64,000 bases of DNA from Pyropia yezoensis. Taxonomy: Eukaryota; Rhodophyta; Bangiophyceae; Bangiales; Bangiaceae. How positions within the stretch are numbered: position 1 is the stretch's first letter; every line of letters starts with the position of its first letter. Below are positions 3 through 30,633 of this stretch, in pieces. The position numbers and the translations under genes are program-made. The notes below the pieces were generated by a model, which worked only from the letters and a program-made list of their open reading frames with translations, did not search any database and was not told where the DNA came from. Location of the stretch: assembly GCA_009829735.1 (NCBI GenBank), contig CM020618.1, forward strand, positions 21,933,346 through 21,997,345. Direction: 5' to 3'.

Positions 3-1841
3 ACGGACCACGCCAGCCTAAGGTGGCTGCTATGTATGGACAGCAGTCAAGGAAGGGTCGCCTGGTGGCGCCTACGCCTTTCGGAGTTCAAGTACAAGGT
101 GTGCACCAGAGCAGGGAGGGAGCACCACTGCGCCGACACCATGTCCCGGCTGGAGACTCCTGCAGCCGATACCGGTCCTATCCCGGAGGAAATACCTTGC
201 TTTATCCTCCCGAATGTCGGACGTGGCTGGCACGCTCCCCTGCATGAGACACCTGAAGCTCATCAACCGGTGACCATTCACCGGATGCTGGAGGCACAAC
301 TGACGGATTCTCAATGCTTGGAGCTTCGCCACCAAATGGACCTGAACCGGAACAGTCGTTTCTCCGAGTCTACGGACGGACTCCTAGTACGGGTGTCACC
401 CTTCGATGGGGCCACTCAAGTCTACGTACCCCGGTGCCTACGAGCTGACATCCTACGACTGGAGCACTCGTCTCCCCAGGCCGGACATCCTGGTATCAAT
501 CGGATGTATGCTTCCATGAGACGACACTATTACTGGGAAACCATGGCCAGTGACGTCCATAAGTACGTGGAGGCTTGTGTTTCTTGTGCAAGGAACCGGT
601 TGTCCCAGAGGAAGAAGACTTCTAAGCTACGCCTATTCCCTGCGGCGGAGCCCTTTGCAAGCTTAAGCATGGACATCCTGGGGCCCCTACCTGAAACATC
701 CAGTGGCAACATATACCTGCTCATCATTTGTGACCGGTTCTCCAAGTTCACTCGAGCAATCCCGCTGAGGACCATCACGGCTCTGGATGTCACGTCAGCC
801 TTCTGCGAGTACTGGATAGCTGCCTACGGCCCTCCAGACTCCGTCTTAACCGACATCGGTCCCCAGTTTGCATCCCTGTTCTTCCAAGGAGTCTGTGACC
901 TGATGGGCATCAAGAACTTGTACACCACGACGTACCACCCGCAAACGAACGGCCAGGTGGAACGATTCAACCGGACCCTAGTGGACATGCTACGGCACTA
1001 CGTGGAGGAGCACCAAGAAGACTGGGACGAGCTCCTGGCTGTCCTCACTCTAGCCTACAACTCCCGAGTTCACCGGACAACGGGAGTCGCTCCACTCGAC
1101 TTTGTCACCCCAAGGCGGCTGACCAACTTCTCCCTGGAAAGAATACCAGATGGTCTCCAGCCTGCACTGAAGTCAGGTCCCAAGGCAAAGGATGAGTTCC
1201 TGGAACAACTGAAGCTCCTGCTCCCAAGAGTCAAGGAGTCAATCTCGAAGACCCAGGAGCGATACAAGCGGGGCTATGACAAGGGCGTTCGGGAAAAGAA
1301 CAAGGAACTGGGTGGTGGCGACTGGGTTTTTGTGGACAACCATAGCAAGACCCGGGGGAAGCTGGACTCGAAGACGGATGGACCTTATGAGATCCTGAAT
1401 ACGGACGGTTGGACCTTTCTTCTAGACGTGGATGGCTCCCCGTACCGCGTGAGCAGCGACCATGTCACCCGAGCTCCACCGCCAAGCCAACGGGACTTGA
1501 CCCGGCGCAAGCGGGCCGCAGTACCCTGGCTATCCCAAGAAGAAGGTCGGGAATATGTCTACGTCAAGTTTGTGGACCATGCCTGGAGAGACGGACGCCT
1601 GTACCTGCGAGTACGCTGGTTCGGTTTTAACCCGGCAGATGATACCTGGGAACCCTCAAACCGGCTACCCATCGCGGATGTCTGTGCCTACACGCGACGG
1701 AACGGGATAGAGGGCACTCCAGTGGCCAGAGCCGGCAAGATTCTGGAGTCGGACTCGGAGGAGGACCAAGAGGATGGGGCCAACCAAGACCCTCGGGACG
1801 AGCCGAGTTCATCCGCAACGGATGCGGAACAAGAGGATTGA
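3..1841 (+). CDS. Ty3/gypsy chromovirus pol, C-terminal part (RNase H end, integrase, chromodomain)
   Basis: The frame is open from base 3, so the gene starts left of the window. The first codons encode the end of RNase H (TDHASLRWLL, then a WWRLRLSEF stretch and a DTMSRL end). An integrase follows: an HHCC zinc-binding segment ending CVSCARNR, then a D,D,E core with MDILGPLP, LTDIGPQF and YHPQTNGQVERFNRTL. Near the C-terminus is a chromodomain-like segment (YLRVRWFGFNPADDTWEP), which places the element among chromoviruses, whose chromodomain is thought to guide integration to particular chromatin. No frame breaks are visible in this stretch. The next ORF (from 1987) lies on the opposite strand and converges on this stop with a 145-base spacer, the same layout as in the element at 3747-20043. 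Confidence 0.93.
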   Translation, partial: TDHASLRWLLCMDSSQGRVAWWRLRLSEFKYKVCTRAGREHHCADTMSRLETPAADTGPIPEEIPCFILPNVGRGWHAPLHETPEAHQPVTIHRMLEAQLTDSQCLELRHQMDLNRNSRFSESTDGLLVRVSPFDGATQVYVPRCLRADILRLEHSSPQAGHPGINRMYASMRRHYYWETMASDVHKYVEACVSCARNRLSQRKKTSKLRLFPAAEPFASLSMDILGPLPETSSGNIYLLIICDRFSKFTRAIPLRTITALDVTSAFCEYWIAAYGPPDSVLTDIGPQFASLFFQGVCDLMGIKNLYTTTYHPQTNGQVERFNRTLVDMLRHYVEEHQEDWDELLAVLTLAYNSRVHRTTGVAPLDFVTPRRLTNFSLERIPDGLQPALKSGPKAKDEFLEQLKLLLPRVKESISKTQERYKRGYDKGVREKNKELGGGDWVFVDNHSKTRGKLDSKTDGPYEILNTDGWTFLLDVDGSPYRVSSDHVTRAPPPSQRDLTRRKRAAVPWLSQEEGREYVYVKFVDHAWRDGRLYLRVRWFGFNPADDTWEPSNRLPIADVCAYTRRNGIEGTPVARAGKILESDSEEDQEDGANQDPRDEPSSSATDAEQED

Positions 1842-1986: not shown

Positions 1987-3741
1987 CTACTCCCGGCGCG
2001 GACGCTGAGCCGCGGAAGTGTCCTCCAGCGCTGCCTCCGCGGCACGACGGCAACCGGAGGAAGACGGGATGACGTAGTGCGGTGGACGCGGGGCATCTCG
2101 GTATGACGCCATCGGAGTAGTACCGGTAGTTGCCGGGGGCTCCCGCTCATCCAGATATGCCCGTCGGCGCCCCTGGAAGCCAGTGAAGGTTTCTGACCAC
2201 TGCTGGGCCAAGCCATGCCGCGTCAAGGTGGCCAGAAGTTCGCCAACCACCGGGCTGATCGACATCTGGCCGCTGTCCGCGCAAGCAAACACCCGGTCGA
2301 CCACTTTGTTCAAGACGCTGGCGTAAGTACCCAGCACCAGGGAGGACCCAACGCCTTCAACCTGCACCGGAAGACGACCCAGCTGGTCTTCAATCATACC
2401 GACGTCGTACTGGTCGCATGTCGGACCACCTTGGATCAGGTACCAGTCAGGCACCCGGAAGCGGGTAAGGCGCAGAGTCGGCGCCGGAATCTCGAACCGC
2501 CCCGAGGATGACACCACCGGACGGTCCACAACGGCCCCCGAAACCGGAGTACCCAACTCCAGCGGGGGCACAGCGCCGCCGGCGTTGGAAGAAGGCGTCC
2601 GAGGCGGAGCGGCCGGAGTGGTAGGCGACCGCACGGTCACCCCCAGACTCGCCGCAGACAGGCGCGGTGCCGGAGGAGCTTGAAGTACCGGCACAGCCGG
2701 AACAGGGCGTGAACGCGCCGGCGACGGTTCAGGCGAGGCCACCGGGGCGACAGGTGCAACAGGAGGAAGCGGAGCCGCCGCAGACGCCCGACCGACCGCC
2801 GCGGCCCATCCCGACTCATGCACAGGCGGCCCAGTCGGCAGGAGATCAAGGGCGGCCGGGGCAGGAAAGCTACCTAGCTGCGGCCACGCCAGAAGCGGCG
2901 TCGCCAGCTGCACCTTGGCCGGAGAAGACTGGTAGACCACCTGCGCCCAACCGAAGCCATCCCGACGCGGGTGGTTCTGGTCGGCAATCGCGTTCAAGAA
3001 GTTCCGGTCATGCACCGGCACCAGACGCCGGAAGTCAATCATCGCCTGGAAGAGCCCCTTGTACTCTTCGTCCTGGCTGCACAGGAAGTCGACGGTCAAC
3101 TTGTCGACAATCCAGACCATCAGGAGGTCCGGGAGAAACCAAAGCCGGTTGGACACCAAGACCTCGTGAAGCCAGTGGTTGGCCGCCAAGACTGTCATCT
3201 CGGACGTGTACATCATGTACGGGATCGAGTGGAAGAAGCCCTTGACCGACGCCTGAGTCAAGGCGTCCAAGAAGTACCAGGTGAAGGGGATGCTGGAAGG
3301 AGCAAACCCGACCGGGATCTCGACTTCCTGCTGCTGCGGGATGACCTTGGGGTAGTACGCCGCCCGGTTAGCCTTATCCAGCTTCCAGAACTCCTGATGG
3401 TTGCAGCTCACGAGGAAGTCACGCTGACGGCCGCGTCGCTCGCCTTGCTCCCGTGCCGGTGACAACTTGGAGTACTTCCGGGTCAGGAAAGGCGGCTCCA
3501 GAGCGACCATGCTCGGACGGGGGTCGCAGTTCAGGCTCCCCCACCCCTTGAGCGCCTCGTCCCAGACCTTGAGCGCCCGGTGGACGTACCCTTCCTCCTC
3601 CGGCCACCGGAGAACGGACGCGGACACGCGATGCTCGGTCAAGGGTAGATCCAGCACCAGCGCGAAGGGGAGATCCTCCAGACGAGCAACCCAAGAGGAA
3701 CCCGAGAAGCTCTGGGAGCGGTCTTGTGCCAGGCGCATCTG
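1987..3741 (-). pseudogene. Antisense accessory ORF (aORF1), 3' part, split by a retrotransposon
   Basis: This is the longer half of an ORF whose 5' half lies at 20406-20044 on the same strand. The reading frame (D-Q-M-R-L-A-Q-D) joins that half exactly when the inserted element 3747-20043 and one copy of its GTCCG duplication are removed. The joined ORF has 706 codons including the stop. I recognise no known domain. A folded-looking central region contains a YYPK...VEIPVGF segment and an RLWFLPDLL segment. A Pro/Ala/Val-rich linker follows, then a C-terminal helical region ending near QQWSETF. The first two segments have counterparts in the ORFs at 21152-22357 and 4697-7144. It converges on the chromovirus pol at 3-1841 and is probably an accessory gene of that element rather than a cellular gene. 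Function unknown. Confidence 0.7.
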
Positions 3742-3746
3742 GTCCG
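3742..3746. repeat. Target-site duplication, left copy (GTCCG)
   Basis: GTCCG directly precedes the left LTR and recurs directly after the right LTR at 20044-20048. Five bases is the usual Ty3/gypsy duplication length. Confidence 0.9.
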
Positions 3747-4109
3747 TGTAGCACAATAGGAATCCGTCGCACGTCCACTCTCAGGGAACACTCACCAAGG
3801 GGGATCGGCACCATCGTCACCGGGAGGCCAAGGTTGCTGTCCTTGGAGCGCAAGCCACGGGACCAAGATGGGAGCCCAAATGGGAGGGGTTTGTTGTTCT
3901 ACCTTGGCCGGCGGTGGATTCGCCACCGGCCCCCTCGTTATAAACCCTCGGAGACACTACTAACTACCCTCCACCCCAAGATGCAAGTCCCTCTGGTCAT
4001 ACGTAACTTATAGATACCGTGACCAGTACGGACTCTCAAATTGAAAGTTAAGGATTAGAAGTAGCCCCCCTAATATTAGGGTCACAATACGGACAACCAT
4101 ATTGCTACA
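3747..4109 (-). repeat. 3' LTR of the nested element
   Basis: This 363-bp LTR has a perfect 7-bp terminal inverted repeat (TGTAGCA/TGCTACA). Read on the minus strand it contains a TTTATAA TATA-like motif and a GC hairpin around 3909-3934 (GGCCGGCGGTGG paired with CCACCGGCC). It differs from the 5' LTR at one base near 3814 (T here, A there). Confidence 0.93.
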
Positions 4110-4121
4110 TATCCCCCCCTT
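4110..4121 (-). other. Polypurine tract
   Basis: On the minus strand this reads AAGGGGGGGATA directly beside the 3' LTR. That is the expected place for the plus-strand DNA primer of an LTR retrotransposon. It shows that the left LTR is the 3' LTR and not a solo LTR. Confidence 0.75.
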
Positions 4122-4696
4122 AGATTCGGCCCGTCCTCGGGTCGAGTTGCATTCGGGTTACCGAATGTAAGTGGGTCGCGTGACCGTTTACCCGTCGGGT
4201 GGGGCTTTGCGCCCCGTCGCGACAGACACCCCTTTTCGAGGTTGTCCGAGGGGGGTGCCCCCCTTTGTGTGGTACACACACGATCCGTTTTCCGGACCGT
4301 TAATTTCCCGATGCGGGTTTTTGTTCACGACCCCCCTTTTCCGAGGGGTGGTGCAAGCGGATCCGCCACCAGGTGCCTGGTGGTAGGGGGGCCCCTCTCG
4401 TGTGGACGATTGAGTGGGGGGCGGGGGCTGCCCGCGTTGCGTGGGGGCGGTTGGGGGTGACCCCCCTTTGCTTACCCCGTGTGTGGGGGTGGCCCCGTCC
4501 CGCCCAGGGGCCTGGGTGGAGCGCGTTCGTAGCCCCGTGGGGCGTGGGTCGACCCGCGTGTTTGTGGCGCTTCTCGTGGCCGTTTGTGGTCATAAGCGCG
4601 GGTGCCCGCGCTTCCCTGGCTCGTCCCGGTTATCCCACCGTACCGGGTCGTAGCCGTCGACGGCTTGTGGGCGCGGGGGACTCCGCACCCGTTATC
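4110..4696 (+). promoter_or_regulatory. Leader and possible promoter of the antisense ORF
   Basis: These 587 bases lie between the 3' LTR and the first ATG of the 815-aa ORF. The ORF's frame stays open back to a GTG at 4373, but the stretch 4373-4696 shows no family similarity and I leave it out of the CDS. A perfect inverted repeat at 4151-4166 (ATTCGG-GTTA-CCGAAT) stands out. A shorter GC hairpin lies near 4200-4216 (GGGGC-TTTGC-GCCCCG). A promoter here is inferred only because the downstream ORF needs a transcript opposite to gag-pol. Confidence 0.35.
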
Positions 4697-7144
4697 ATGT
4701 CCTATCCCCAGGTGCTTGGAGAGGAGGAAGACCTCCTGATCGGGGAGGAGATGGAGGACGACGCGCCTGTCGGTCCCGACGCCGCGCGTTACGGGGTGAG
4801 CTCGTCTGACGACGACGGGCCTGCGGTGTCCGTCCGTCTGTCGGCCGGAGGACTGTCGTCCGTGTGCAGCGGCACGACGGTGCCGTCGGCCGGAGGTCAA
4901 CCCGGCGGTCAACCGCGCGTGGCGGCTTCTACCCCCTCTCTGCCGGCTGCCCGGATGGAGCCTGGTGCCGGTGCCGGCTCACCGCAGCTACCTCAACATG
5001 GTCCGCCCTGCGGCGGAGGTGGCGACCCGCAGCCGACTCCGGCTGGTCAAGGTGGTCCGGGTGTCCGGGCGGTGACTCCTCGAGGCGGTCCCGACGTTGA
5101 CGCGGGTGGTGGTGGCGGTGCGACACCCGGTGCGGCGGGTCAAGACGGTGCGGGTGTCCGCACGGCCGGGGCTCCGGCTCCGGAGGCTGTCCAAGTGCCT
5201 TCCCCTTCCGAGGCGGGGGCTACGCCGACGGGTGGTGCCGGCGCCGGTACCGTACCTGCGGTGCCGCGGGTGTCGAGCGGTCAAGACGCTCCTTCTCCCA
5301 TGGCGGTTGACACCGGGAGTTCCTCCGGGCGGGCGCCCGCCCTTCTTCTTCCTCCTCGGCCTCGTCAATCTCCGACGTCGGCCCCTCTTCCGGTGGTGCG
5401 TCCCCCGGCGCCCCCGATTCTTCCTGGTCCTGCCCGGGTTGCCCCGTTGGGTGGCGGCGTCGCCGTGGCGGCGGGTCAACCCGCCATGTCGGTGTCCGAC
5501 TTGGTGGCTCGGGTTCGAGGCCTCACGGTGCAAGAGTCGATGGAGTCCGATGGGCGTATGCGGGTCGACTTCCACCTGGTGCATCCCCGTGGAGAGTCCT
5601 CCCGGCGCGTCAAGGTGGACCCGAGCTGGGAGCGGGAGTTGGTGCGGCTGGTCAACCAGCCGAACGCGGTCCGGGTGGAACACCATTGGATCCTGAGTCA
5701 GCCGGACGACCGGCATGCGCAGCTCTGGCGCACCCGGGTGGGACGGGGTGAGGTCTACCTCGACCCCAACTTCGGGGTCTGCGACCTGATTGCCCCCGCG
5801 TTGCCGCGGGAGATTGACTACCCGGCTAGTGCTCGGGGGATTGCGGCGGCGGCGGAGCCGGTTGCGTTTGGGGAGACGGTGAGCCGTACCGGTCGGTATC
5901 CCGACTTTGACTACTACCCGGGGGTACCCCCGTATCTGTCGTTGACGGCTCCCTACCCGCCCATGGCGGGGTTGAAGTCGGCGTCGAGTTGGCGACGTAA
6001 CCATGGTGTCATGGCGGATGCGTTCCGCACGGATATAACGTGTGCGTTGCAGACCGGCAACGGTCGTGCTCCGGTATACACTCCCGTGCGCCCGCCGCTA
6101 TGGCAGGAGGGGTGGGAACCCGCCCCTGCTTTCCGGTTTGACACCGGCTCCTGCCTTCGCTACTTCGGGAGTGTGTTGGCCTCGCGACCGGTCCACCCGT
6201 TGCAGGGTACCTTCACCCTTGAGGTTACCCTCGGGCAGGCTTCATCCTTCTTGCTGTCCGTCCGCCGGCAGGGTCGTCTGTTTCATCTTCCGACGGGTGT
6301 CCGTCGGCACATCGCGCAGTTGGGCGTGGATCTGATAGCTGCCAAGACCGGGTTGGCCCGGGAATTCGAAGCCCTGCTGGCTGTTCACGATGCCGTGAAC
6401 TGGGCTGGGGTGTTGGCCCTTCCCCCGTACCGGGACCCGCAGGCTGGGGCTTCCCCCTTGCCTCGTCACTCGTTGCGTGTCCGGCGTACTCAGCCGGTTG
6501 AGCCTAGTTGCCATGGGTGGGCGTCCACCGAGGCCGTTCCTGACCTGGGTATTCCCATGGTTATCCATGACCCTCTTCAGGTCCTTGCTCCGTGGTTCGG
6601 TAACCCGATGCCGGCGGCGGTTGGCCGTCGTCCCCGAGAGTGGGGCTCTGTGGGTGGGGAGCGTGAGGTGTCCCGTCGTCGGGCGGAGTACCGCCGTGGT
6701 TACGGTGGAGCCCCTTCGGTAGGGTCCTACCGGGCCTCGTATCAGGTGCCACCGGCTCCGGTGGTAGCCGTGTCGGCTCCTGTGGCTCCTCTGGCTGCGC
6801 CAGTGTCACCTCCCGCCCCTGTCCTACATGACGGGGGTCCCCGTCTCTGGTATGAGGGCGTTGACGCCCTTGTTACCCGCGCAATGCGTGGGGGTCTCTC
6901 TGTTAGCTGGGGGGATATCCCCCCAGGTGCTGCGCTGGTTGGGTCAGCGCGTTGCTTCGGTGGCGTGCTGGACCGCCTCCAGAAAGCTCTGGAGGACGTG
7001 GAGGCTGGCCGCAGCACCCTCGTCCAGCTATGCACCGAGGTAACTCGGGTGGTCGACCGTCGTGACGTTGCCGACCGGTGGAGCACGGAGGTCTACGCGC
7101 TTACGCGTGAGTGGCCTCCCTCGGGCAGTGGGTCTACCCACTGA
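4697..7144 (+). CDS. Antisense accessory ORF of the nested element (aORF2), 815 aa, unknown function
   Basis: An intact 815-aa ORF runs opposite to gag-pol and converges on pol. I chose ATG 4697 (MSYPQVLGEEEDLL) because the preceding 108 codons begin at GTG and look like non-coding leader. Residues 1-260 are acidic, then Gly/Pro/Ala-rich and probably disordered. Residues about 264-640 look folded, with PDFDYYPGVPPYL and, near residue 527, RLFHLP. A Pro/Val/Ala linker follows. A helical C-terminal domain (about 716-808) runs from LWYEGVDALV to LTREWPP. No signal peptide, membrane span or known enzymatic motif is visible, which argues against an envelope protein. The central and C-terminal parts align in pattern with aORF1 and with the decayed ORF at 21152-22357. 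Antisense ORFs between pol and the 3' LTR are known in some plant Ty3/gypsy lineages, but I cannot say this family matches any of them. Confidence 0.75.
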   Translation: MSYPQVLGEEEDLLIGEEMEDDAPVGPDAARYGVSSSDDDGPAVSVRLSAGGLSSVCSGTTVPSAGGQPGGQPRVAASTPSLPAARMEPGAGAGSPQLPQHGPPCGGGGDPQPTPAGQGGPGVRAVTPRGGPDVDAGGGGGATPGAAGQDGAGVRTAGAPAPEAVQVPSPSEAGATPTGGAGAGTVPAVPRVSSGQDAPSPMAVDTGSSSGRAPALLLPPRPRQSPTSAPLPVVRPPAPPILPGPARVAPLGGGVAVAAGQPAMSVSDLVARVRGLTVQESMESDGRMRVDFHLVHPRGESSRRVKVDPSWERELVRLVNQPNAVRVEHHWILSQPDDRHAQLWRTRVGRGEVYLDPNFGVCDLIAPALPREIDYPASARGIAAAAEPVAFGETVSRTGRYPDFDYYPGVPPYLSLTAPYPPMAGLKSASSWRRNHGVMADAFRTDITCALQTGNGRAPVYTPVRPPLWQEGWEPAPAFRFDTGSCLRYFGSVLASRPVHPLQGTFTLEVTLGQASSFLLSVRRQGRLFHLPTGVRRHIAQLGVDLIAAKTGLAREFEALLAVHDAVNWAGVLALPPYRDPQAGASPLPRHSLRVRRTQPVEPSCHGWASTEAVPDLGIPMVIHDPLQVLAPWFGNPMPAAVGRRPREWGSVGGEREVSRRRAEYRRGYGGAPSVGSYRASYQVPPAPVVAVSAPVAPLAAPVSPPAPVLHDGGPRLWYEGVDALVTRAMRGGLSVSWGDIPPGAALVGSARCFGGVLDRLQKALEDVEAGRSTLVQLCTEVTRVVDRRDVADRWSTEVYALTREWPPSGSGSTH

Positions 7145-7621
7145 GGAGTGCTATTGTTTGGGCGGGAGAGGGCCCCGGCAACCCTTATGGTAGCCGGGTA
7201 GTAGTGAGTATAAACTCATCCCCCTTTGGGGGCATTGCTTGCCTCTGTTTGCTGCCCTGGGGAGTACCCCTTCTGGTTCAGTGGTGCCTTGCCTCCCGTC
7301 CAACTTCTTCTGGTTGGTTCATGCTTGGGGAGGTCATCCTCCCTCACTTGGTGTCTTGGCTTGGGGAGGTCATCCTCCCGTGTAAGCCCCCTAGTTACTT
7401 CGATATTATCGGAGTTAGCCTTTACCTTTAAGTTAACTTATTAAGGTTCAGGTTTTACTTAGTTACCTAAGCTTAGCTCTACTTAGTTACCTGAGCTTGG
7501 TTCGACTTAGAAACCTAAGTCTGATTTGACTTAAAACCTAAGTGTGCCATAACCATGTCACACCCTACTTAGTAGGTATAAGCCTCACCCCCCAACAGCC
7601 GAAGTCGGTGTCGGTTGGGTG
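7145..7621. other. Convergent spacer between aORF2 and pol, with structured repeats
   Basis: The 3' ends of the two opposing genes meet in this spacer. It holds a pair of near-identical segments at about 7325-7343 and 7361-7380, each with a GGAGG-TCAT-CCTCC hairpin, and a 24-bp tandem array at 7457-7542. AT content rises here compared with the flanks. It is a plausible two-way transcript-end region. The second copy lies at 12618-13096. Confidence 0.6.
7457..7542. repeat. Four imperfect palindromes in a 24-bp tandem array
   Basis: ACTTAG..ACCTAAG-type palindromes start at 7457, 7481, 7505 and 7529, a constant 24-bp spacing, with small changes between copies. The array recurs in the copy right of the gap (about 12933-13018). 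Two units remain in the older element near 56795-56845. Confidence 0.75.
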
Positions 7622-10943: not shown

Positions 10944-12617
10944 CGGCGGGTCAACCCGCCATGTCGGTGTCCGACTTGGTGGCTCGGGTTCGAGGCCTCA
11001 CGGTGCAAAGAGTCGATGGAGTCCGATGGGCGTATGCGGGTGGACTTCCACCTGGTGCATCCCCGTGGAGAGTCCTCCCGGCGCGTCAAGGTGGACCCGA
11101 GCTGGGAGCGGGAGTTGGTGCGGCTGGTCAACCAGCCGAACGCGTCCGGGTGGAACCCATTGGATCCTGAGTCAGCCGGACGACCGGCATGCGCAGCTCT
11201 GGCGCACCCGGGTGGGACGGGGTGAGGTCTACCTCGACCCCAACTTCGGGGTCTGCGACCTGATTGCCCCCGCGTTGCCGCGGGAGATTGACTACCGGCT
11301 AGTGCTCGGGGGATTGCGGCGGCGGCGGAGCCGGTTGCGTTTGGGGAGACGGTGAGCCGTACCGGTCGGTATCCCGACTTTGACTACTACCCGGGGGTAC
11401 CCCCGTATCTGTCGTTGACGGCTCCCTACCCGCCCATGGCGGGGTTGAAGTCGGCGTCGAGTTGGCGACGTAACCATGGTGTCATGGCGGATGCGTTCCG
11501 CACGGATATAACGTGTGCGTTGCAGACCGGCAACGGTCGTGCTCCGGTATACACTCCCGTGCGCCCGCCGCTATGGCAGGAGGGGTGGGAACCCGCCCCT
11601 GCTTTCCGGTTTGACACCGGCTCCTGCCTTCGCTACTTCGGGAGTGTGTTGGCCTCGCGACCGGTCCACCCGTTGCAGGGTACCTTCACCCTTGAGGTTA
11701 CCCTCGGGCAGGCTTCATCCTTCTTGCTGTCCGTCCGCCGGCAGGGTCGTCTGTTTCATCTTCCGACGGGTGTCCGTCGGCACATCGCGCAGTTGGGCGT
11801 GGATCTGATAGCTGCCAAGACCGGGTTGGCCCGGGAGTTCGAAGCCCTGCTGGCTGTTCACGATGCCGTGAACTGGGCTGGGGTGTTGGCCCTTCCCCCG
11901 TACCGGGACCCGCAGGCTGGGGCTTCCCCCTTGCCTCGTCACTCGTTGCGTGTCCGGCGTACTCAGCCGGGTGAGCCTAGTTGCCATGGGTGGGCGTCCA
12001 CCGAGGCCGTTCCTGACCTGGGTATTCCCATGGTTATCCATGACCCTCTTCAGGTCCTTGCTCCGTGGTTCGGTAACCCGATGCCGGCGGCGGTTGGCCG
12101 TCGTCCCCGAGAGTGGGGCTCTGTGGGTGGGGAGCGTGAGGTGTCCCGTCGTCGGGCGGAGTACCGCCGTGGTTACGGTGGAGCCCCTTCGGTAGGGTCC
12201 TACCGGGCCTCGTATCAGGTGCCACCGGCTCCGGTGGTAGCCGTGTCGGCTCCTGTGGCTCCTCTGGCTGCGCCAGTGTCACCTCCCGCCCCTGTCCTAC
12301 ATGACGGGGGTCCCCGTCTCTGGTATGAGGGCGTTGACGCCCTTGTTACCCGCGCAATGCGTGGGGGTCTCTCTGTTAGCTGGGGGGATATCCCCCCAGG
12401 TGCTGCGCTGGTTGGGTCAGCGCGTTGCTTCGGTGGCGTGCTGGACCGCCTCCAGAAAGCTCTGGAGGACGTGGAGGCTGGCCGCAGCACCCTCGTCCAG
12501 CTATGCACCGAGGTAACTCGGGTGGTCGACCGTCGTGACGTTGCCGACCGGTGGAGCACGGAGGTCTACGCGCTTACGCGTGAGTGGCCTCCCTCGGGCA
12601 GTGGGTCTACCCACTGA
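10944..12617 (+). pseudogene. aORF2 copy right of the gap (5'-truncated, frameshifted near the gap)
   Basis: Repeats aORF2 from about residue 258 to the stop. Single-base indels near 11008, 11143, 11156 and 11295 break the first 400 bases. From 11352 on it is open and nearly identical to the copy ending at 7144 (one visible substitution changes a Val to Gly after RRTQP). Most likely the same gene sequenced twice. Confidence 0.8.
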
Positions 12618-13096: not shown

Positions 13097-16000
13097 TTAC
13101 AGTAGGCGTCGTCGCCTCATGTACGGCATGAGTAGTTGGCGGGGTATATTCGCCGCCTGTTCCCAGGTGGGTGAGTCGTATCCGACCCACATAACCTTGA
13201 CGTACCAGGGTCCTGGTATGTCCGGGTCGGTGTGTCCGACCACGATCTCTACTTGGTATGGAATCCCATCCGGTCCCACCGGGTCATCCGACCGGTGGGT
13301 TGTAAGAGCTTCATATAGCAACCCAGCCGGTACCGGCTGAGGCTGTTCCGGCTTCGGAGCAGGTGTGACATCATTCATACTGATGCGTTGGATCTCCGTA
13401 TCGGAGTGTAAGATAACAGAGTGGTCATCTCTGTGGAGGATCTGGTACGGTCCCTTGACCGGTTGCATAAGCTTGTTCCCTCGGAACTTCTGGTGTCTGA
13501 TATAGACCCAGTCACCTGTTACCAGGGTTGCGTTGCGCACCCGTAGTCGGGCGTCGAAGTTCTTCTTATATCGAAGTTGTGTTCTGTCAAGGGCACCCTT
13601 GAGCTTAGGAATCATCCACGATAGCTTGGCCAACCAAGCTAGGTGGATGCGTTCGGCGGGTCGGCCCTTCGGTGTATCATACCGAGTGCACCTGCCGGGT
13701 GGCAGCGTCAGGTTACCGACGCCTAGTGGCATGACCCACTCCAGCGGAGCAATGTTTGTGCTCCGATGTGGCCTGGCATTGTATGCCAGGGTGAGTACGG
13801 ACAGAAGCCTGTCCCAAGTGTTCGTGTGCTCGGCCACGTAGCACTGTAGCATCTTTACGATGGTGCGGTTGAACCGCTCCACCTGCCCGTTGGACTGCGG
13901 GTGGTAGTCGGATGCCCGACGTGGTTCGATACCGAACATGCCCAGGACCTTAGTGCAGAATGCCGACGTAAGGTTTGCTCCGTTATCGGAGAGGAGTTGC
14001 TTCATGACTCCGTATGCACTGATCCAGTGGTCAACCACTGCGTTCATGATGGTGTATGCCGTATCATTCGGGATGGCTGCCGCTCTTGACAGCTTAGTGA
14101 AGCGGTCAGACATGACCAGGATGTACCTGTTCCCTTCTTCCGTTACCGGAAGTGGCCCGAGTATGTCGATAGCGACTTGCTCGTTGGGCCCATCAGGTGG
14201 GAATAGCTTCATGGCAGACGCCCGCCGATGTAGTCTCATGCGGTTACGTGCACAGGGGTGGCATCCCCTTACGTGGTCGACCACGTCGACGGCCATTGCT
14301 GGCCAGTAGAAGAACCTTCGCATTGCTGCGAACATACGTGAACCCCCCGGGTGTCCGGCTGTAGGGTTCTCATGTTCTCGTTTCATGACGGCTTGCCGTA
14401 AGGACACGGGAACCACGACTTGATGTCGTCCATCGGCGGGTGCCCGCCGGTATATGAGTCCGTCTTCGTTCTCGGAGAAGATGCCGGCCGTACCGGCCAG
14501 GAGGTTAGCACGATGACGTCTACAGTCATCGTCGTTGGCCTGTGCCTCGCGGAAGTCCGCGAGGGTCAATGGGCACGCAAGGTGTGCCATGGTATGGTCA
14601 GCCATACCCTGGGTAGCATTTCCCACCATGCACACCGGTACCACCGGGATGTCCTCGTCCACCGGGCGGGTATCCCCGCTCGGGGTGTCGAGTCGAGACA
14701 ACGCGTCTCCGAGGTGGTGGGTTGGCCCAGCCTTATACACCGTGCGGTAGTCGTGCTCGGCCATCTTCAGCCTCCATCGGGCTAGCCTCCCATGGCTATC
14801 GGAATCCTTGTCACCAAGGTTGAGGAGCCATCGTAGGGGTTCGTGGTCGGACCTCACGATGAACCTGGAGCCCTCCAGGTATGGACGGAGCAGTTGCACT
14901 GCCCATATAACTCCGAGGCATTCACGCTCGGTGGCACTATAGTTCCGCTCAGCCGGGTTGAGTTTCCGGCTGAAGTACCCTACCGGACGTAGGTCCGGGA
15001 TAACGTTGTCGGTACCTATCAACGTCTCTCCCTGTAACAGGGTGCATCCCACTTGTGTATCACACGCATCGACATCGATGACGAAGGTACCCCGTCTATG
15101 CGGTAACGCAAGGACGGGTGGGGCTAGTAGGGCTCGCTTCAGCGACTCGAATGCCTCCTCTTCGCTAGGCGAAGGGGGTTGGAGTACCTTGGGTAAGGTA
15201 CTGCTCGTAAGAACCGTTAACGGTTTAGCTATCCGAGCAAAGTCCTTGACGAACCGTCGGTATACATTGCACATTCCCAGGAAGCTCTTGAGCTGCGTCT
15301 GGGTGTTAGGGAACCGGGCATCCCGGAGTGCCCGGGTATTGGCTTCGAGTACCCCTAGTTTACCAGGGGTTATCTGGTGGCCCAGATACTCGACCGTCTG
15401 TTGGAAGAAGGCGCACTTCTTCAGACGCAGGGTTACCCCGGCGTTCCTCAAGAGGGTGAGTACCTCGTCAACATGTTGTACATGGTCATCCATGTTACGC
15501 GAGAAGACGATGACGTCATCGAGGTACACTAGGCAGTTACGCCACTTCACCCCCGACAGTATGATGTCGATAGCCCACTGGAATGTAGCGGGGGCGTTGG
15601 ACAATCCGAAGGGCATCCTTAGGAACTCGTACACTCCACTGTGACAGACGAATGCCGTCTTGGGGATATCCTCGTCCGCCACCGGGATCTGCCAGTATCC
15701 GGCATTGCAGTCGATGGTGGTAAACACCGTAGCCTCCCCCAGGGAGTCGATGCATTCATCCATCCTTGGTAAAGGGTATGAGTCCTTCTTGGTAACCAAG
15801 TTGAGGCGTCGATAATCGATGCAAAACCGAGGGGTTTGATCCTTCTTCGGCACAATAACGACTGGGGCACCCCATTCCGACATCGAAGGTCGGATCACCT
15901 TAGCTTCCCTCATCCTCTTCACTTCTCCATCAACGATCTCTCGTTGCATAGGTCCCGCTCGGTGCGGTTGTGAGCGGGCGGGTCGTGCGCCTGGTACCAG

Positions 16001-17263
16001 GTCTATACGATGTTGGGTTGCCCCAATGGTCCCCAAGGCCCCGCCTGTCCACATAACGTCATGCTTTCTTAGCATCCGTCGTACCCCTTCGGCTACCGAA
16101 GGGGGAAGTTGGTCGAGGTCAGCCTCGGCCAGTGCCTTCAAGGCCTCTTGGTCCTTTGGCGGCAGGTCCGCCGGAGCCGCCGATGGGTTAGGCTTCCCGT
16201 CATCGGGTTGCTGTCGCTCGGTGGTCTCGGCGACCGCCAGTACTTCAAGTGGTTCCACTTGACCTTCCTTATCAGGGGTAAGGATATCTCCTTCGTAGAG
16301 TTCGGCAATCCCGAGGATAGTTCCCTTCGGGAGGGTGACTGCCTTACGGCGATAGTTCGCCATCACTAGGAGGGACGACCCTCCTGCTGGGAGGTCTATG
16401 AGACCGTTGGCCATGGTCAACCCATGGCGCTTGTACGTCCGTAGGTTGGACTGGACTCTGCAGATGCCTGCGAGGTCGCAGTTAACCGGGAGGACTGTCT
16501 CTGACAACGGCTCAAAGCGAGTTCGCTTGGCCAACCGAAGTGTCTTCGGCTGGACGCTTGCGTACACCTCAGCCACGTTAACGTGGCTTCCTTGTAGCGT
16601 CAGGTCCCTGACGATAGCCGTGTGTCCTCGCTTCGTCCCGTCAGCTTCTTGAAGCTCGACGGTCCTCCGGCCTGGCCGGATTGCATCAACGTGAACGTTG
16701 ATGAAGGTGCACCCCAGTATGCAGGGCACCGATAGTGTTTCACATACCAGGAAGTCAACTTCCGTGGTGAGATCCCCGATGGTAACCTGCAGCGACATCG
16801 CTGCGGTCGTACGAATGAGTCGACCATTCGCGTCCTTGATGGTGGGTCCCCGAGTCACTCTGACTCGTGGAAGCCACTTGTCCGGGAGGGTATCCTTCCG
16901 GATAAGGTTGGGTCCAGCCCCTGTATCCAGTACAGGGTAGTACGATCGTGTCGACTGGGGGTCAACCCCCAGTGTGGCTGATACCTTGAAGTTCTCCAAG
17001 GTAAACAACACATGTCCTACACCGATATCCGGTGTAGCTCGGGCATCCTGAACAGGGCCCTTGTCTGGTTCAACGTGACGGGGCTTCCCGTCCTCTCCTC
17101 CCAACCTTGGAGGTTGGTCATCAATCCCCTGACGCCGTGTCGTCGGGGCCGGAAGGTGTACCCGGGGGTTGATGCGGCGTCGGCTCAACCGCGCTCTCCG
17201 TGGGGCTTTCCCCGCGGTACTCCGGGGTGGCTTGCTTGGGTGACCCCAGCGCCCCCCGGTCAT
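13097..17263 (-). CDS. pol: Ty3/gypsy chromovirus pol polyprotein (protease-RT-RNase H-integrase-chromodomain)
   Basis: An intact 1,388-codon ORF. In order it shows a retropepsin with the LDTGAGPNLI active-site motif, a reverse transcriptase with [21 protein letters not shown] and the catalytic YLDD, an RNase H with TFVIDVDACD and RSDHEPLRWLL, an integrase with a zinc-binding segment ending CHPCARNR, and a D,D,E core with AIDILGPLP, LLSDNGA and PQSNGQVERFNRT. A C-terminal chromodomain-like segment contains WYVKVMWVGY and TWEQA. The domain order is that of Ty3/gypsy. The ATG at 17263 follows the gag stop by 8 bases and lies in the -1 frame. The pol frame is open upstream through the GGGAAAC heptamer, so expression as a Gag-Pol fusion by frameshifting is likely. 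All catalytic motifs I can check are present. Confidence 0.96.
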   Translation of the reverse strand: MTGGRWGHPSKPPRSTAGKAPRRARLSRRRINPRVHLPAPTTRRQGIDDQPPRLGGEDGKPRHVEPDKGPVQDARATPDIGVGHVLFTLENFKVSATLGVDPQSTRSYYPVLDTGAGPNLIRKDTLPDKWLPRVRVTRGPTIKDANGRLIRTTAAMSLQVTIGDLTTEVDFLVCETLSVPCILGCTFINVHVDAIRPGRRTVELQEADGTKRGHTAIVRDLTLQGSHVNVAEVYASVQPKTLRLAKRTRFEPLSETVLPVNCDLAGICRVQSNLRTYKRHGLTMANGLIDLPAGGSSLLVMANYRRKAVTLPKGTILGIAELYEGDILTPDKEGQVEPLEVLAVAETTERQQPDDGKPNPSAAPADLPPKDQEALKALAEADLDQLPPSVAEGVRRMLRKHDVMWTGGALGTIGATQHRIDLVPGARPARSQPHRAGPMQREIVDGEVKRMREAKVIRPSMSEWGAPVVIVPKKDQTPRFCIDYRRLNLVTKKDSYPLPRMDECIDSLGEATVFTTIDCNAGYWQIPVADEDIPKTAFVCHSGVYEFLRMPFGLSNAPATFQWAIDIILSGVKWRNCLVYLDDVIVFSRNMDDHVQHVDEVLTLLRNAGVTLRLKKCAFFQQTVEYLGHQITPGKLGVLEANTRALRDARFPNTQTQLKSFLGMCNVYRRFVKDFARIAKPLTVLTSSTLPKVLQPPSPSEEEAFESLKRALLAPPVLALPHRRGTFVIDVDACDTQVGCTLLQGETLIGTDNVIPDLRPVGYFSRKLNPAERNYSATERECLGVIWAVQLLRPYLEGSRFIVRSDHEPLRWLLNLGDKDSDSHGRLARWRLKMAEHDYRTVYKAGPTHHLGDALSRLDTPSGDTRPVDEDIPVVPVCMVGNATQGMADHTMAHLACPLTLADFREAQANDDDCRRHRANLLAGTAGIFSENEDGLIYRRAPADGRHQVVVPVSLRQAVMKREHENPTAGHPGGSRMFAAMRRFFYWPAMAVDVVDHVRGCHPCARNRMRLHRRASAMKLFPPDGPNEQVAIDILGPLPVTEEGNRYILVMSDRFTKLSRAAAIPNDTAYTIMNAVVDHWISAYGVMKQLLSDNGANLTSAFCTKVLGMFGIEPRRASDYHPQSNGQVERFNRTIVKMLQCYVAEHTNTWDRLLSVLTLAYNARPHRSTNIAPLEWVMPLGVGNLTLPPGRCTRYDTPKGRPAERIHLAWLAKLSWMIPKLKGALDRTQLRYKKNFDARLRVRNATLVTGDWVYIRHQKFRGNKLMQPVKGPYQILHRDDHSVILHSDTEIQRISMNDVTPAPKPEQPQPVPAGLLYEALTTHRSDDPVGPDGIPYQVEIVVGHTDPDIPGPWYVKVMWVGYDSPTWEQAANIPRQLLMPYMRRRRLL

Positions 17264-17271
17264 CCTTCCTC

Positions 17272-19455
17272 TTACTCGTTTCCCGCCCTTGGTAGGGTGC
17301 TGTCCGCCGGGACATCCGGCTGAGGAGGTGCCCCCTCGACGGCCAGTACTTCACCTGGAGCTGGCTGCCTACCCGGTGCGGGTCCGGGTGCTCGGGCGGG
17401 ATACCCCCCGGTGGATGCCTTGCGTTGCGCCGCTGCCCGCCGAGACTCCTCGGGGATGAGTGGGCAGGAAGACACCCAGTGCTGGGGATCCCCACACAAC
17501 ATACACCCGGACGTGCCGGTCCCCCCTTGAGGTCGCATCGGGGTAGCCCCGTAGCTACGGTTGCCTCCCTCGGGCGCCCGAGTGCCTGCTCCCTGGTAGG
17601 CCTTGGGTCCTTGGGTCAACCGGAACATGGACTCCCCCAACCGGTTGGGTCGGCCCGCAATCTGCGGGGGTGCCTCCGTGCGCACCGCCCATGTTGGCAA
17701 GGGTTGGTGAGGGTTACCCGTCACCGGGGAGTACCCCGTAGTCCGCACATACGGGACGCGCCGTCCCGTTCCTTCGTTGACCTGGAACTGGGTTCCAGCC
17801 GGGGCGATGTACGCTACCGTACCGTGTTCATCAATCACCGGCGTCGCCGGTAGCAACAGGTGGCCCTGTTGGTCGACTAGAGGGTCATCCTCACCAATAG
17901 GGGTATGTTCGGTCGCCACCAGTACTGGTGCGGCCTTACGTTCCACCTTCTCTTGCCTCGGTACCGGGGTAAGACTGGGCTTGCCTCCCTCACCCTTGGG
18001 CTTCGGGGCCAAGGCACACTCCGGGTGTAGAACCCGGTAGGCGTCCCCTAGGGACTTGCACATATGCATCAGTCGACTGAAGTTCGTCCGTGCCGTGTTG
18101 GCGCCCCGTGCGGATATCCGCACGTAGTTGGGTACTCCTGCGAACAGGATGGCCCGTAGCTCCCCTTCTCCGAGGAGCTTCCCCAGCTCGTAGTCGAGCT
18201 CTTGGATCCGGCGTCCAAACATCTCCTCATCCTCCCAGGACTGGGCGGTGGCAGTGCGAAGGGCCCGATAGTGGTCCTCGCACTTGTCCTCACTGAGGTA
18301 GCTGCTCAGCAGCTCCTTCAATATCCCACGGTAATCCATGGGGGTGGCCGCGACCCTCATTCCCGGCATCGGGGATGCCTGGCGAAGAATGCCTCGCACC
18401 CGTTCATCAACAAAGAACGGGAGGATCTCCAGGGCCAGCCCCTCGTTAACGAGCGCCTTGTCTGCGGCTGTCTTGAAGCTAGTCAAGAAGCCGATGACTG
18501 CCAACGGGCGTCCGTTCGGCCCCCCGAACATAGGGACTCCCTTCATAAGGGTCTGCATAGAGCGGATCGCCCGATGCGACGTATTACGCATCGATTCCGA
18601 TACGGTGGTAGAGCGGTCCTCCAAACGATAACGTTCCGGAGTAAGAACCGAACGGAAGACCTCGTTGACGATCTCCGTGTCAGCGTCCTGGATATCCAGT
18701 CGCTTAGCCAGTTGATGAGCGAACTCATCGGACTCCATCCGCTTCAGTAGGCTCGCAGTTACCTGCGCGGTCATAGCTTCCACCACTGAATATGGTACTT
18801 CAGGCGTCGGCACCTCGGGAACCCGAGTTGCCTGGCCTCCTTCGTCGTGGGGGTACTGCGAGAGGGTACCCCCTCCCCCAATAACCGACTCTCCCCCGGC
18901 GTACGTATCCGCCGGGTCGTGTCCGCGGAGTCCGCTTCGGGTGCTCCGAGCGTATCGCTCCGTGTGACTCCGTTCCAACTCTGCCGACGAGTCGGACCCA
19001 TACCCCATTGTGTCCGGGGGTTGTCCAGGAGTAGCAACCCCGGGATTGACCCTGGTGGACTCCGAAAGTAGTCCGGCCGGTTCGAACCGTACCGGTGTGG
19101 GAGGAACACGACGGGGTCCCGTCGTGTGCCGTGTTGACATCAACACTGCCATTGCGTCCTCCGTCCGATCTTGACGGGCGTCGAGCCCGGAAAACCGGGC
19201 CTCGATGCGGGCCAATGATGCCATCAGGGAATCCCCTGGTGAAGGAGGCGGCGGAGTGAGGTCGGTCGACGACAGTTGAGGCGGGCCCCCGCCTCCTGCC
19301 GTCCGAGCCGTGCCAAACGTCGATCCGGCACCGGAAAGCATTGGCGTCTCAATGTTATCGATCGGGTTCCCGATCCCGGTTCCCGTAGTCACCTCCGGAG
19401 TCGGCGTAGACGCCGATCCGTCATCTTGAACGTTCCCCGTCTCTTGGGTAGACAT
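17272..19455 (-). CDS. gag: Retrotransposon Gag with CCHC zinc knuckle
   Basis: An intact 727-aa ORF starting at ATG 19455 (MSTQETGNVQDDG). The N-terminal 200 residues are Ser/Thr/Pro-rich. The middle is helical and capsid-like, with the GILKELLSSYL and SWEDEEMF segments. A CCHC knuckle (CMLCGDPQHWVSSC, spacing C-2-C-4-H-4-C) lies near the C-terminus and would bind the element's RNA. The stop follows the slippery heptamer by a single codon. A second, nonsense-broken copy lies at 61125-63302. Confidence 0.92.
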   Translation of the reverse strand: MSTQETGNVQDDGSASTPTPEVTTGTGIGNPIDNIETPMLSGAGSTFGTARTAGGGGPPQLSSTDLTPPPPSPGDSLMASLARIEARFSGLDARQDRTEDAMAVLMSTRHTTGPRRVPPTPVRFEPAGLLSESTRVNPGVATPGQPPDTMGYGSDSSAELERSHTERYARSTRSGLRGHDPADTYAGGESVIGGGGTLSQYPHDEGGQATRVPEVPTPEVPYSVVEAMTAQVTASLLKRMESDEFAHQLAKRLDIQDADTEIVNEVFRSVLTPERYRLEDRSTTVSESMRNTSHRAIRSMQTLMKGVPMFGGPNGRPLAVIGFLTSFKTAADKALVNEGLALEILPFFVDERVRGILRQASPMPGMRVAATPMDYRGILKELLSSYLSEDKCEDHYRALRTATAQSWEDEEMFGRRIQELDYELGKLLGEGELRAILFAGVPNYVRISARGANTARTNFSRLMHMCKSLGDAYRVLHPECALAPKPKGEGGKPSLTPVPRQEKVERKAAPVLVATEHTPIGEDDPLVDQQGHLLLPATPVIDEHGTVAYIAPAGTQFQVNEGTGRRVPYVRTTGYSPVTGNPHQPLPTWAVRTEAPPQIAGRPNRLGESMFRLTQGPKAYQGAGTRAPEGGNRSYGATPMRPQGGTGTSGCMLCGDPQHWVSSCPLIPEESRRAAAQRKASTGGYPARAPGPAPGRQPAPGEVLAVEGAPPQPDVPADSTLPRAGNE
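17278..17284 (-). promoter_or_regulatory. Putative -1 ribosomal frameshift heptamer GGGAAAC
   Basis: In the gag frame the codons are GCG GGA AAC GAG TAA, so the heptamer has the X XXY YYZ phasing. Slipping back one base enters the open pol frame. A TGACC...GGTCA stem can form about 15 bases downstream, with a G-rich loop and a CCACCCC stretch after it that could give a pseudoknot. The older copy has GGGAAAT at 61131-61137 in the same phase. Confidence 0.6.
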
Positions 19456-19680
19456 AGTCACAATCAGTCAACCGACGCAACGATCACCACGAATAAGAGA
19501 GCGAGGGGGTAGATTGGGGAGAGTAACAGTAGGTCACAGTCACAGGTAAAAGCTCAACACAATCGATCAGGTCGCAACACCACGAGTACAAGAAAAGGAC
19601 CGGATCCCTATCCGTGTGCCAGGGCCGAAGACGGCGTCACCACAAGGGTGACGGAAACCCGTCCCCTGCTGCTCCACCAA
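19456..19680 (-). other. Element leader with primer-binding-like site
   Basis: This is the untranslated leader between the 5' LTR and gag. On the minus strand it begins TTGGTGGAGCAGCAGGGG directly after the LTR. TGG one base inside the LTR, followed by a GC-rich stretch, is what a tRNA 3' end (CCA) would pair with at about 19679-19662. I cannot name the tRNA. The same sequence adjoins the LTR of the older copy at about 63510-63527. Confidence 0.6.
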
Positions 19681-20043
19681 TGTAGCACAATAGGAATCCG
19701 TCGCACGTCCACTCTCAGGGAACACTCACCAAGGGGGATCGGCACCAACGTCACCGGGAGGCCAAGGTTGCTGTCCTTGGAGCGCAAGCCACGGGACCAA
19801 GATGGGAGCCCAAATGGGAGGGGTTTGTTGTTCTACCTTGGCCGGCGGTGGATTCGCCACCGGCCCCCTCGTTATAAACCCTCGGAGACACTACTAACTA
19901 CCCTCCACCCCAAGATGCAAGTCCCTCTGGTCATACGTAACTTATAGATACCGTGACCAGTACGGACTCTCAAATTGAAAGTTAAGGATTAGAAGTAGCC
20001 CCCCTAATATTAGGGTCACAATACGGACAACCATATTGCTACA
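19681..20043 (-). repeat. 5' LTR of the nested element
   Basis: 363 bp, ends TGTAGCA/TGCTACA, one difference from the 3' LTR at 3747-4109. Followed on the right by the GTCCG target duplication. Confidence 0.95.
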
Positions 20044-20406: not shown

Positions 20407-21151
20407 GACGTCCAGACTCCGGGGGAACGAGAGGGCCAAGGTGAAGGAGAATGGGGGGGGGCAGAATCGGAGCAGGTGATCGTAAACGGGGTGAAGACGC
20501 TCGACCTCGGCACCGGTGTGGACGTGCTCGAGGCTGTGCACGGTGGCACCTGGTTCGGCCCGAGGACGTGCCGGACTAGGGAGGGAGCTATGTAGCATCC
20601 CTGGCCCCGACTTGGCGCCGACCCGGGACTACAACCAGAGGGCACCAGGTGCCAAAACACGCCCGCCGTGTGGTGATGGTTGGCGGCCGTGGCCCGTGCC
20701 CGGCACTGGGATGCGGTGGACTACGCTATCCACACGTGAGAGAGGGATTGCTGATGGGTTTTTGCATACTTGTGAGGGACTTGATTTGAGAGAATTTGAG
20801 TGTGAGATTAGTGAGTGGGAATAGAATTAGTAGTGATAGTGGCCCCCGACCTGACGAGGTTAGACTCGGGTCGGGGCCACTCGGGGTTATGGGGGGGCTA
20901 CCTGGCCAACGTGCCGAGGCTCCCCCAGATGCACGTTAAGAGGGACAGCGAGGCGCCCTTGGCCCGCGCCCTCAGGAAAAAGGAAACTGCGCGTTTGCTT
21001 TCCTCTTCCCCGTGTGCACTACCGTGCGTATCTGTTTGCTCTGCGAGCAGGCACGTGAGGCAACAGGCATATCATTCTTGTAGTTCCCCTTTCTATGTTA
21101 CCTGTCCCTTTCCCCCGAGGGATATAGACACGTGTCTGAGAGGATCGAGTT
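20407..21151. other. Non-coding stretch between aORF1 and the next ORF, possible LTR remains
   Basis: No gene is supported here. By analogy with the nested element, the 3' LTR of the outer element should lie here, and a TG-start near 20834 is possible, but I cannot find a matching end or a second copy. A 42-base near-perfect hairpin sits at 20839-20880. A TATAAAA motif lies on the minus strand near 21148-21155. Confidence 0.4.
20839..20880. repeat. GC-rich hairpin
   Basis: GTGGCCCCCGACC at 20839-20851 pairs with GGTCGGGGCCAC at 20869-20880 apart from one bulged C. The loop is 17 bases. Confidence 0.6.
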
Positions 21152-22357
21152 TTATACCACAGGGGCCCCCGCAGGGGGTTGAGTCATGTAGTCATCGAGG
21201 GAGGCCGCGGCCACCACGATTGCCTTGTCCGGGGGAGGCGCAGTGTGGCGTTCCACCCCCGGGGCATACGGGTAGTCCCCGATGCCCAACCCCTCCTTGA
21301 GTACCACGCGGCCGTCGTGAAGTTCACGGCCGACCCAGACGAACTGGCGAAGTGTGCAATCGTCCTTGGGCCCACGAGTGGGGCGGCGCAACTTGTGCTC
21401 AATACTCTCCCACTTGATAAACGTGTGGAGGTGGAGCATCTCCTCCTGTAGAGTGAGTTATCCTGGTGAGCACCCCTCAGCAACTAGCTGAGGGGTGAGC
21501 TGTTCCGAACCTTGGATAAGCCGGAGGGGAAGATGCCAGAGCATCCCCCGCCGCTGGACACAGGACACCGAGGTCGACATGACCTCGAGGAGCCATTGGG
21601 TGGCCAACATGGCCCACACCAGGTGATCTGGGCAAGCCGTCAACATGACGGAGCCGAAGTGGTCGAGCAACCGTGGCAGCAACGCAGGGAATCCGTAGGG
21701 GACCTCAACTTGAGGCCACCACTCGGGCTTCTTCGGGTAGTACTGCTCCTTACTGGCAGCGGACTGCTGCGGAAACTCAAGTTGAGCCGAGGTCACCAAG
21801 TAGGGACCTCGCCGGAAGTCCTTCTCCATCCGCACATCAAAGTGATGAGTGTGCGGATCGGCCTCGTGAAGGTACGGGGGGCGAGTTGCCACCGCGTCCC
21901 AAGTAAAGGTCGGCAAGTCGCCGGGACCCGGGATAGTTCCCCCGCGGTCCACCATGGCCTTGGCCCGCTGTACGTCTTCGACCTCCTCATCGTCCAGGAA
22001 GGCAAACTGGTCCGTCCTGAAGCCGGCAGGGAACCCGACCCTACGGGGATACTTCTCCCGTAGGCGGTCCCACACCCGACCCATCGCTGTGCCAAGTCGG
22101 CCACAGCGAAGAACAGTCAACCCCTCCTCAAACAGAGGCCAAGCGGGGTAAAACCACCGCCCCAAGGCCTCACGCGGGACAACGTGTCCCGCCTCCGGGG
22201 GAGATCCCGCCGTCAACCCAAAGCCGGGTGACGCGGGAGTCCCATCCCCCGGAGTAACCGCGGAGCCCCCGCCGGAAGTCCCGGCGGGCGCTGCACCGTA
22301 GGAGGTATCCTCCATACGGTCGTCAAGGGAGTCCGTTTTCACCCCCGGGGTCGCCAT
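21152..22357 (-). pseudogene. Third aORF-family copy, decayed
   Basis: From ATG 22357 (MATPGVKTDSLDDR) an ORF runs to a TAA at 21460-21458. Reading continues in another frame from 21439 to 21152, so the gene is broken once or more near 21440-21460. Family features are PTFTWDAVATRPPYL, YYPKKPEWWPQVEVPYGF and LWHLPLRLI, each with a counterpart in aORF1 and the first and last also in aORF2. The first 100 residues are Gly/Pro-rich, as in aORF2. The C-terminal domain seen in the other two is not recognisable. No pol of the same element is beside it. Confidence 0.55.
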
Positions 22358-25208: not shown

Positions 25209-25404
25209 AGCCGCACTGCTCCACGAGCACGCAACGCAGAGCCGCACCGCTCGGAGACCACGCGCACAGCCGCACCGCTCGGCGACCACGCGCACAGCCG
25301 CACCGCTCGGCGACCACGCGCACAGCCGCACCGCTCGGCGACCACGCGCACAGCCGCACCGCTCGGCAACCACGCACACAGCTGCCTGTACTGCCTATCC
25401 CCTG
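25209..25404. repeat. 28-bp minisatellite, about six copies
   Basis: Units beginning near 25237, 25265, 25293, 25321, 25349 and 25377 share the core CACAGCCGCACCGCTCGGCG. The middle units are identical and the edge units diverged. A degenerate unit precedes them at 25209. Confidence 0.85.
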
Positions 25405-29334: not shown

Positions 29335-29367
<33 letters not shown>

Positions 29368-29386
29368 CCCCCCGGCCGCCCCCCCC

Positions 29387-29419
<33 letters not shown>

Positions 29420-30600: not shown

Positions 30601-30633
<33 letters not shown>

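Follow-up and report, generated by a model that had tools for sequence, protein, structure and literature searches.

Does the long open reading frame converging on pol in a Ty3/gypsy element of the red alga Pyropia yezoensis encode a protein that the element needs, and if so, of what kind? The window analysed here is a stretch of 64 kb, positions 21933346-21997345 of contig CM020618.1. In it, an earlier note had recognized two different elements built on the same plan, with gag-pol on one strand and a convergent ORF after pol on the other. The plan is correct, but the number is higher: three Ty3/gypsy families, denominated B, A and O3, feature a convergent ORF, 647-815 codons long, in the interval that separates pol from the 3' LTR, and O3 copies located elsewhere in the genome have the same organization. 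Predicted repeats, mainly LTR retrotransposons, make up 48% of the P. yezoensis genome (PMC7423979).

Organization of the elements in the window

Element B spans positions 3747-20043, has gag-pol on the minus strand, and is bounded by LTRs of 363 bases each, 99.7% identical. The pentamer GTCCG is found on both sides of the insertion, at 3742-3746 and 20044-20048. The antisense ORF is intact and placed between pol and the 3' LTR, on the strand opposite to gag-pol; it starts 587 bases inside of the LTR, and its end is 477 bases away from that of pol, which is at 7622 in the first copy. The distance between start codon and LTR is 184 bases in A and 338 bases in O3. TATAAA-like stretches, spotted by eye and to be taken as candidates only, are found in the LTRs of A and B on the strand of the antisense ORF, and point towards it; the stretch is TTATAAAC in B and, where the A LTR starts, GTATAAAA.

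The segment 5469-10443 is repeated at 10944-15918, 99.6% identical, around a gap of 500 Ns. The pol of B is in pieces in the first copy and open in the second. Gap and duplication indicate that the assembly is imperfect in this part, and the duplication is likely an assembly error. The ORF at 11352-12617 was therefore rejected as a separate element, being probably an assembly copy of part of the B ORF.

The region 3747-24245 is a nest of insertions. As the earlier note had it, B is located within the antisense ORF of A, which is split into 20406-20044 and 3741-1990 (minus strand), with GTCCG at the flanks. A lies in turn within the antisense ORF of the O3 element; the two consecutive insertions thus both hit an antisense ORF. 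The ORF reported at 21152-22357 is an antisense ORF of the O3 kind, but is broken: it has an in-frame stop at 21458-21460, and is truncated at 21161, where it runs into the 3' LTR of A, to which 21152-21161 belongs. The O3 element adjoins a B-like pol remnant, which extends to about 24245 and into which it probably inserted. A third B-like element, on the minus strand at 56160-63888 (5' LTR 63531-63888, other end cut off), retains some 100 codons from the end of the antisense ORF. Features of the window are listed in Table 1. The window also hosts long G runs (20 and more) at 29330-33220, where G+C is 74-78%, and tandem repeats at 25208-25382 (28 bases) and 38913-39218 (about 39 bases).

Table 1. 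Positions of the elements, their genes and their LTRs in the 64-kb window
Feature	Positions	Strand	Remarks
pol of element A, 3' part	36..1841	+	chromodomain-like end
Antisense ORF of element A, C-terminal part	1987..3741	-	
3' LTR of element B	3747..4109	-	
N cassette of B ORF	4500..5300	+	approximate boundaries
Antisense ORF of element B	4697..7144	+	intact, 815 codons
C cassette of B ORF	5360..7185	+	approximate boundaries
Most conserved portion of B ORF, residues 421-590	5957..6466	+	from dN/dS
Helical C-terminus of B ORF, residues 691-815	6767..7141	+	weak similarity with A; predicted helices
Convergent spacer, B ORF to pol	7145..7621	.	
Second copy of part of B ORF	11352..12617	+	inside probable assembly duplication
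pol of element B	13097..17263	-	protease, RT, RNase H, integrase
gag of element B	17272..19461	-	from position before pol; zinc-knuckle match only weak (E 0.072)
5' LTR of element B	19681..20043	-	
Antisense ORF of element A, N-terminal 121 codons	20044..20406	-	far side of B insertion
3' LTR of element A	20591..21161	+	TG...CA termini, purine tract in front; ends by eye; other LTR outside window
Antisense ORF of O3 element	21162..22357	-	one in-frame stop; truncated by A LTR
3' LTR of O3 element	22696..23164	+	8-base inverted termini, purine tract in front; ends by eye; other LTR outside window

Homology, copies and selection

The homology of the three ORFs was evaluated by comparison with 500 shuffled sequences and by profile alignment. 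The similarity of O3 to both B (z 17.9) and A (z 12.3) is never equalled by shuffles (0/500 in either case). BLASTP, run against a tiny database, gave E 3e-9 for B-O3 and 2e-7 for A-O3, at 23-24% identity; hhalign gave E 1e-8 (probability 96%) for A-O3 and 8e-5 (61%) for B-O3. Between A and B directly, a weak similarity is seen at the C-terminus (z 5.7, 0/500 shuffles as high; hhalign E only 0.046, probability 1.2%). The similarity of their cores is not significant by BLASTP, and its z of 2.8 is reached by 9 of 500 shuffles. The C-termini of B and A have no significant similarity to O3 in the shuffle comparison (z 0.3 and 0.2, respectively); the similarity of the helical C-terminus is seen in two ORFs only, A and B, as noted earlier. 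Sequence P0006 is close to O3 (z 22.2, 500 shuffles) and less so to B (z 3.4, reached by 2/500), and P0003 is not significantly similar to O3 (z 1.5, reached by 35/500). The PPYL/PPFL motif described by the earlier note is present in all three ORFs, and YYPK...VE(I/V)P.GF in two, A and O3; RL(W/F)xLP is shared by A and B, but O3 has MLWHLP instead. The A, B and O3 ORFs constitute one family, in which O3 is the main link between A and B, and the helical C-terminus a weak one.

The pol proteins are far apart, A and B being 39% identical over 569 positions. Homologs at the same place and in the same orientation in three families with such distant pol, and the selection described below, make it very unlikely that the ORF was acquired from the host and is a mere passenger of no use to the element, even if retroelements do transduce genes. 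Searches for a single-copy host relative fill up with element copies.

The survey of the same position in related elements, which the earlier note had suggested, was carried out on 66 loci, i.e. the best-scoring copies plus a few chosen ones, L001 and L009 being the copies of the window. A convergent pol end is found beside the ORF in 52 (16/24 B-type, 24/30 O3, 12/12 A). Eight of the 14 loci without it (L053, L054, L057, L058, L063-L066) extend just 245-701 bases past the ORF. In the 107.5-Mb genome, the matched stretch is free of stops in 51 of 55 scored copies of B, 130/131 of O3 (299-residue query), 68/77 of A and 70/87 of B-like ORFs, fractions biased upward because the best candidates only were scored. 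A B-type LTR is seen, by eye and from the reading frame, within the O3 antisense ORF of L018. Six relatives were found in a database of 5.8 billion proteins, in which, for one query, the best 7999 candidates by shared words were scored; one, P0003, is annotated in Pyropia vietnamensis. No relatives were found among 29 pattern matches in viral contigs, nor among 19 in bacterial and archaeal genome contigs. As far as these searches tell, the family has been seen so far in Pyropia, in two named species.

Ratios of dN to dS were calculated pairwise (Nei-Gojobori) for 12 of the 24 B loci (that of the window and 11 of 23 extracted ones), all 11 A loci and 7 of the 24 O3 loci. A ratio near 1, or a profile comparison showing the three ORFs not to be homologous, had been indicated earlier as the results that would speak against the family. 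Neither was obtained: homology is found as described above, and diverged copies are well below 1, mostly at 0.1-0.5. Values range from 0.12 to 0.41 in all 55 A pairs, and from 0.08 to 0.69 in all 21 O3 pairs, the top value deriving from 9 changes. For B, 56 of 66 pairs are at 0.14-0.48. The other ten (0.57-1.03; dS 0.02-0.10) are all formed within the group L055, L059, L061, L062 and L066; high ratios in this close cluster are as expected for decay after insertion, and provide no evidence of selection either. The most constrained tract in B is 421-500 (0.02-0.12 in 5/5 comparisons), and 501-590 is at 0.04-0.28 in 5/5; at residues 346-420, two of five comparisons gave 0.61 and 1.00, from few changes. 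In all seven pairs used as frame control the ORF frame has the lowest dN/dS and is stop-free, and third positions are the most variable; the -1 frame comes near (0.25-0.47), yet contains 10-32 stops. Gag (0.14) and pol (0.08), compared with the third element, are under stronger constraint than the antisense ORF. Purifying selection acts on the protein of the antisense ORF in its own frame.

Long mechanical ORFs abound in the window. Even so, frames left open by chance in DNA rich in G+C are hardly conceivable as an explanation, given the homology, the dN/dS ratios and the frame kept free of stops in diverged copies. Selection on the amino acid sequence in this frame also speaks against the idea that the product is an antisense RNA, which would pair with the genomic RNA at its 3' end, limiting copy number. 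The convergent layout suits such an RNA, and antisense RNAs with a regulatory role are considered for other elements (PMC7264820; for Ty1, PMC12786077). The two functions could coexist, but RNA instead of protein as the product is, in our opinion, highly improbable.

Cassettes in the B-type ORF

Several B-type elements are close to B in LTR (96-99%), spacer (93-97%) and gag-pol, and less so in the leader (86-92%). Their antisense ORFs follow a different pattern. In L055, L061 and L062, dS from B is 0.14-0.19 at residues 1-200 and 0.72-0.73 at residues 222-815, and falls to 0.19-0.20 at the integrase end of pol. L064 and L065 have the opposite pattern, with dS of 0.67 in the first part of the ORF and 0.12-0.13 in the remainder. 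Identity drops near 5360 and recovers near 7185, some 40 bases beyond the stop codon. In gag-pol of L055 and L064, dS from B is 0.02-0.35 (windows up to 134 codons). The pol dS of L065 was left out, as it is spurious because of a B-type LTR sitting in this pol; B-type LTRs are inserted there in inverted orientation (L065 with L070).

These comparisons show the ORF of B-type elements to be a mosaic of two cassettes, N and C, and lend good support to their exchange by recombination. Among the 24 B-type loci, eight are N1C1 (the window copy included), 12 N1C2 and three N2C1; one (L056) is unclassifiable, and the combination N2C2 was not found. In two of the N1C2 loci, L052 and L054, the N part is just 73% like N1. 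The LTRs of the N1C2 copies L054 and L058 are only 90-92% like the B LTR, and the C2 version is therefore not restricted to one young cluster.

Elements otherwise nearly alike thus carry different versions of the antisense protein, which could act as a specificity factor. Were this true, the version would set which copies, silencing complexes or host partners are recognized; exchange of cassettes would serve self recognition, copy-number control or escape from silencing, and a retrotransposon accessory gene would be a diversifying recognition module. We regard this as quite unlikely. The cassettes are probably a side effect of template switching among old lineages, neutral and with their variety unselected. 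Co-packaged RNAs recombine in LTR elements generally, and selection inside the cassettes is purifying, not positive. No island of like depth was seen in A or O3 copies in bins of 150 bases: the lowest bin in the shared part of A copies is at 77% (L040, in a proline-rich linker), while in O3 copies there are bins at 87-89%. Deep alleles are found elsewhere too, since the third element differs from B in gag-pol (dS 0.07-0.64), yet is close in the last 102 codons of the ORF (pS 0.137); mosaicism is thus not limited to the antisense ORF. What speaks against neutral exchange is that, taking L055 and L064 together, dS of 0.67-0.73 is reached in both halves of the ORF, and in no window of gag or pol.

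Nature of the protein and known systems

The earlier note had recognized no known domain, and none of the Pfam, PHROG, PDB-sequence and fold comparisons gave a significant match. Pfam matches to DUF6214 (E 0.014-0.087), ASTN_2_hairpin (0.0085) and SH3_16 (0.05) were discarded, being confined to one to three members of the scanned alignments, and scoring under the curated threshold wherever this is displayed; matches to PHROG, with E 0.039 at best, were rejected likewise. Structure prediction and fold comparison, also suggested earlier, were carried out but yielded no fold: two AlphaFold2 models are poor (mean pLDDT 42.4 and 43.3), and a Foldseek search of the PDB with the second (A6) returned nine matches, the best with E 3.3. 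Helices with block pLDDT up to 89 are predicted at the C-terminus of B, within the otherwise poor model. The B protein has an acidic start and an N-terminal part rich in glycine, alanine and proline; the O3 protein has a basic tail rich in arginine and serine. Basic clusters are found at residues 532-629 of O3 and 660-667 of B, and none, by the rule used, in the C-terminal part of A.

The location after pol, where env sits, and the helices in the poor models are compatible with a structural or particle protein, resembling capsid or envelope and packaged with the element as an auxiliary part. This is unlikely: the ORF is antisense to gag-pol, its product is unlike the element's own gag (BLASTP), and has no Pfam or PDB sequence match. 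As anticipated by the earlier note it is not envelope-like, no membrane span being detected by hydropathy (maximum 19-residue value 1.54). Env-like ORFs share with the Pyropia ORF the location after pol, and differ from it in orientation and for the membrane span. The term chromovirus, used in the same note, is supported for A and O3 by a chromodomain-like end of pol, and is a candidate name for B; Chromo matches at the pol end have E 3.3e-5 in A, 3.8e-5 in O3 and 0.08 in B, all below the Pfam cut-off.

The Pyropia antisense ORF has the same place and orientation as the TRP28 (Transposase_28, PF04195) ORF of Retand, and may resemble it in layout. The latter is common to many families of one lineage, and TRP28, predicted to bind DNA, is encoded by 97% of Retand clusters (PMC11963269). 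According to the available text of the same source, TRP28 occurs only in flowering plants, and Retand is a non-chromovirus lineage. In contrast, no PF04195 match was found in the 20 Pyropia ORF sequences scanned with Pfam models, nor in their own genome.

In plants and fungi, ORFs antisense to the element and placed after pol, ahead of the 3' LTR, are on record for Grande, RIRE2, Retand, PvRetro13 and the fungal Boty (PMC7264820), and the architecture is therefore known. The Pyropia ORF resembles this class, denominated aORF-3R (gene23 of maize Grande, rice RIRE2, PvRetro13, Boty) and not mentioned by the earlier note, in position, in orientation relative to gag-pol and as a conserved ORF of unknown function, which in the known class is present in most copies (PMC7264820). 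It differs from it for the host, a red alga, and for the chromodomain-like end of pol in A and O3; cassette mosaicism as seen in B-type elements is not mentioned for the class in the available text of PMC7264820. Sequence comparison with the class was limited to Pfam models. HBZ-like genes of human T-lymphotropic viruses are similarly antisense and near the 3' LTR (PMC7264820, PMC11963269), whereas the Pyropia ORFs have no significant Pfam domain.

We favour, with moderate confidence, the reading that the gene with the properties observed (position and orientation, homology in three families, many stop-free copies, selection, no membrane span and, in B-type elements, mosaic cassettes) belongs to the element itself and encodes an accessory protein of the aORF-3R kind, intracellular and possibly nuclear, which aids the cycle of the element. 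Transcription of the ORF would start at a promoter in the 3' LTR or close to it, and proceed towards pol. The protein would remain in the cell and might act in the nucleus, as suggested by composition (the basic clusters of O3 and B) and by analogy with GENE23 of maize Grande, which is nuclear and has its own promoter; the roles of such ORFs are reported as unknown (PMC7264820). It would aid the cycle most likely via expression or silencing of the element.

The antisense ORF is a real, conserved accessory gene. Two aspects appear to be new. One is a family in a red alga in which sequence comparison detects no TRP28 domain, and which is common to elements with diverged pol. The other is the presence of two exchangeable cassettes in the B-type ORF, the feature that a specialist would least expect. 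No literature on antisense ORFs of red-algal retrotransposons was found among the matches listed (titles and abstract openings, few subscription journals). Published gene models of P. yezoensis were built on repeat-masked sequence (PMC7423979), and such genes are therefore easily missed. Pyropia provides a separate family in a eukaryotic lineage other than plants, with many nearly alike elements, and natural variants differing mainly in the antisense ORF. These represent a natural experiment by which function becomes testable, and the cassette structure makes the function of the antisense ORF approachable.
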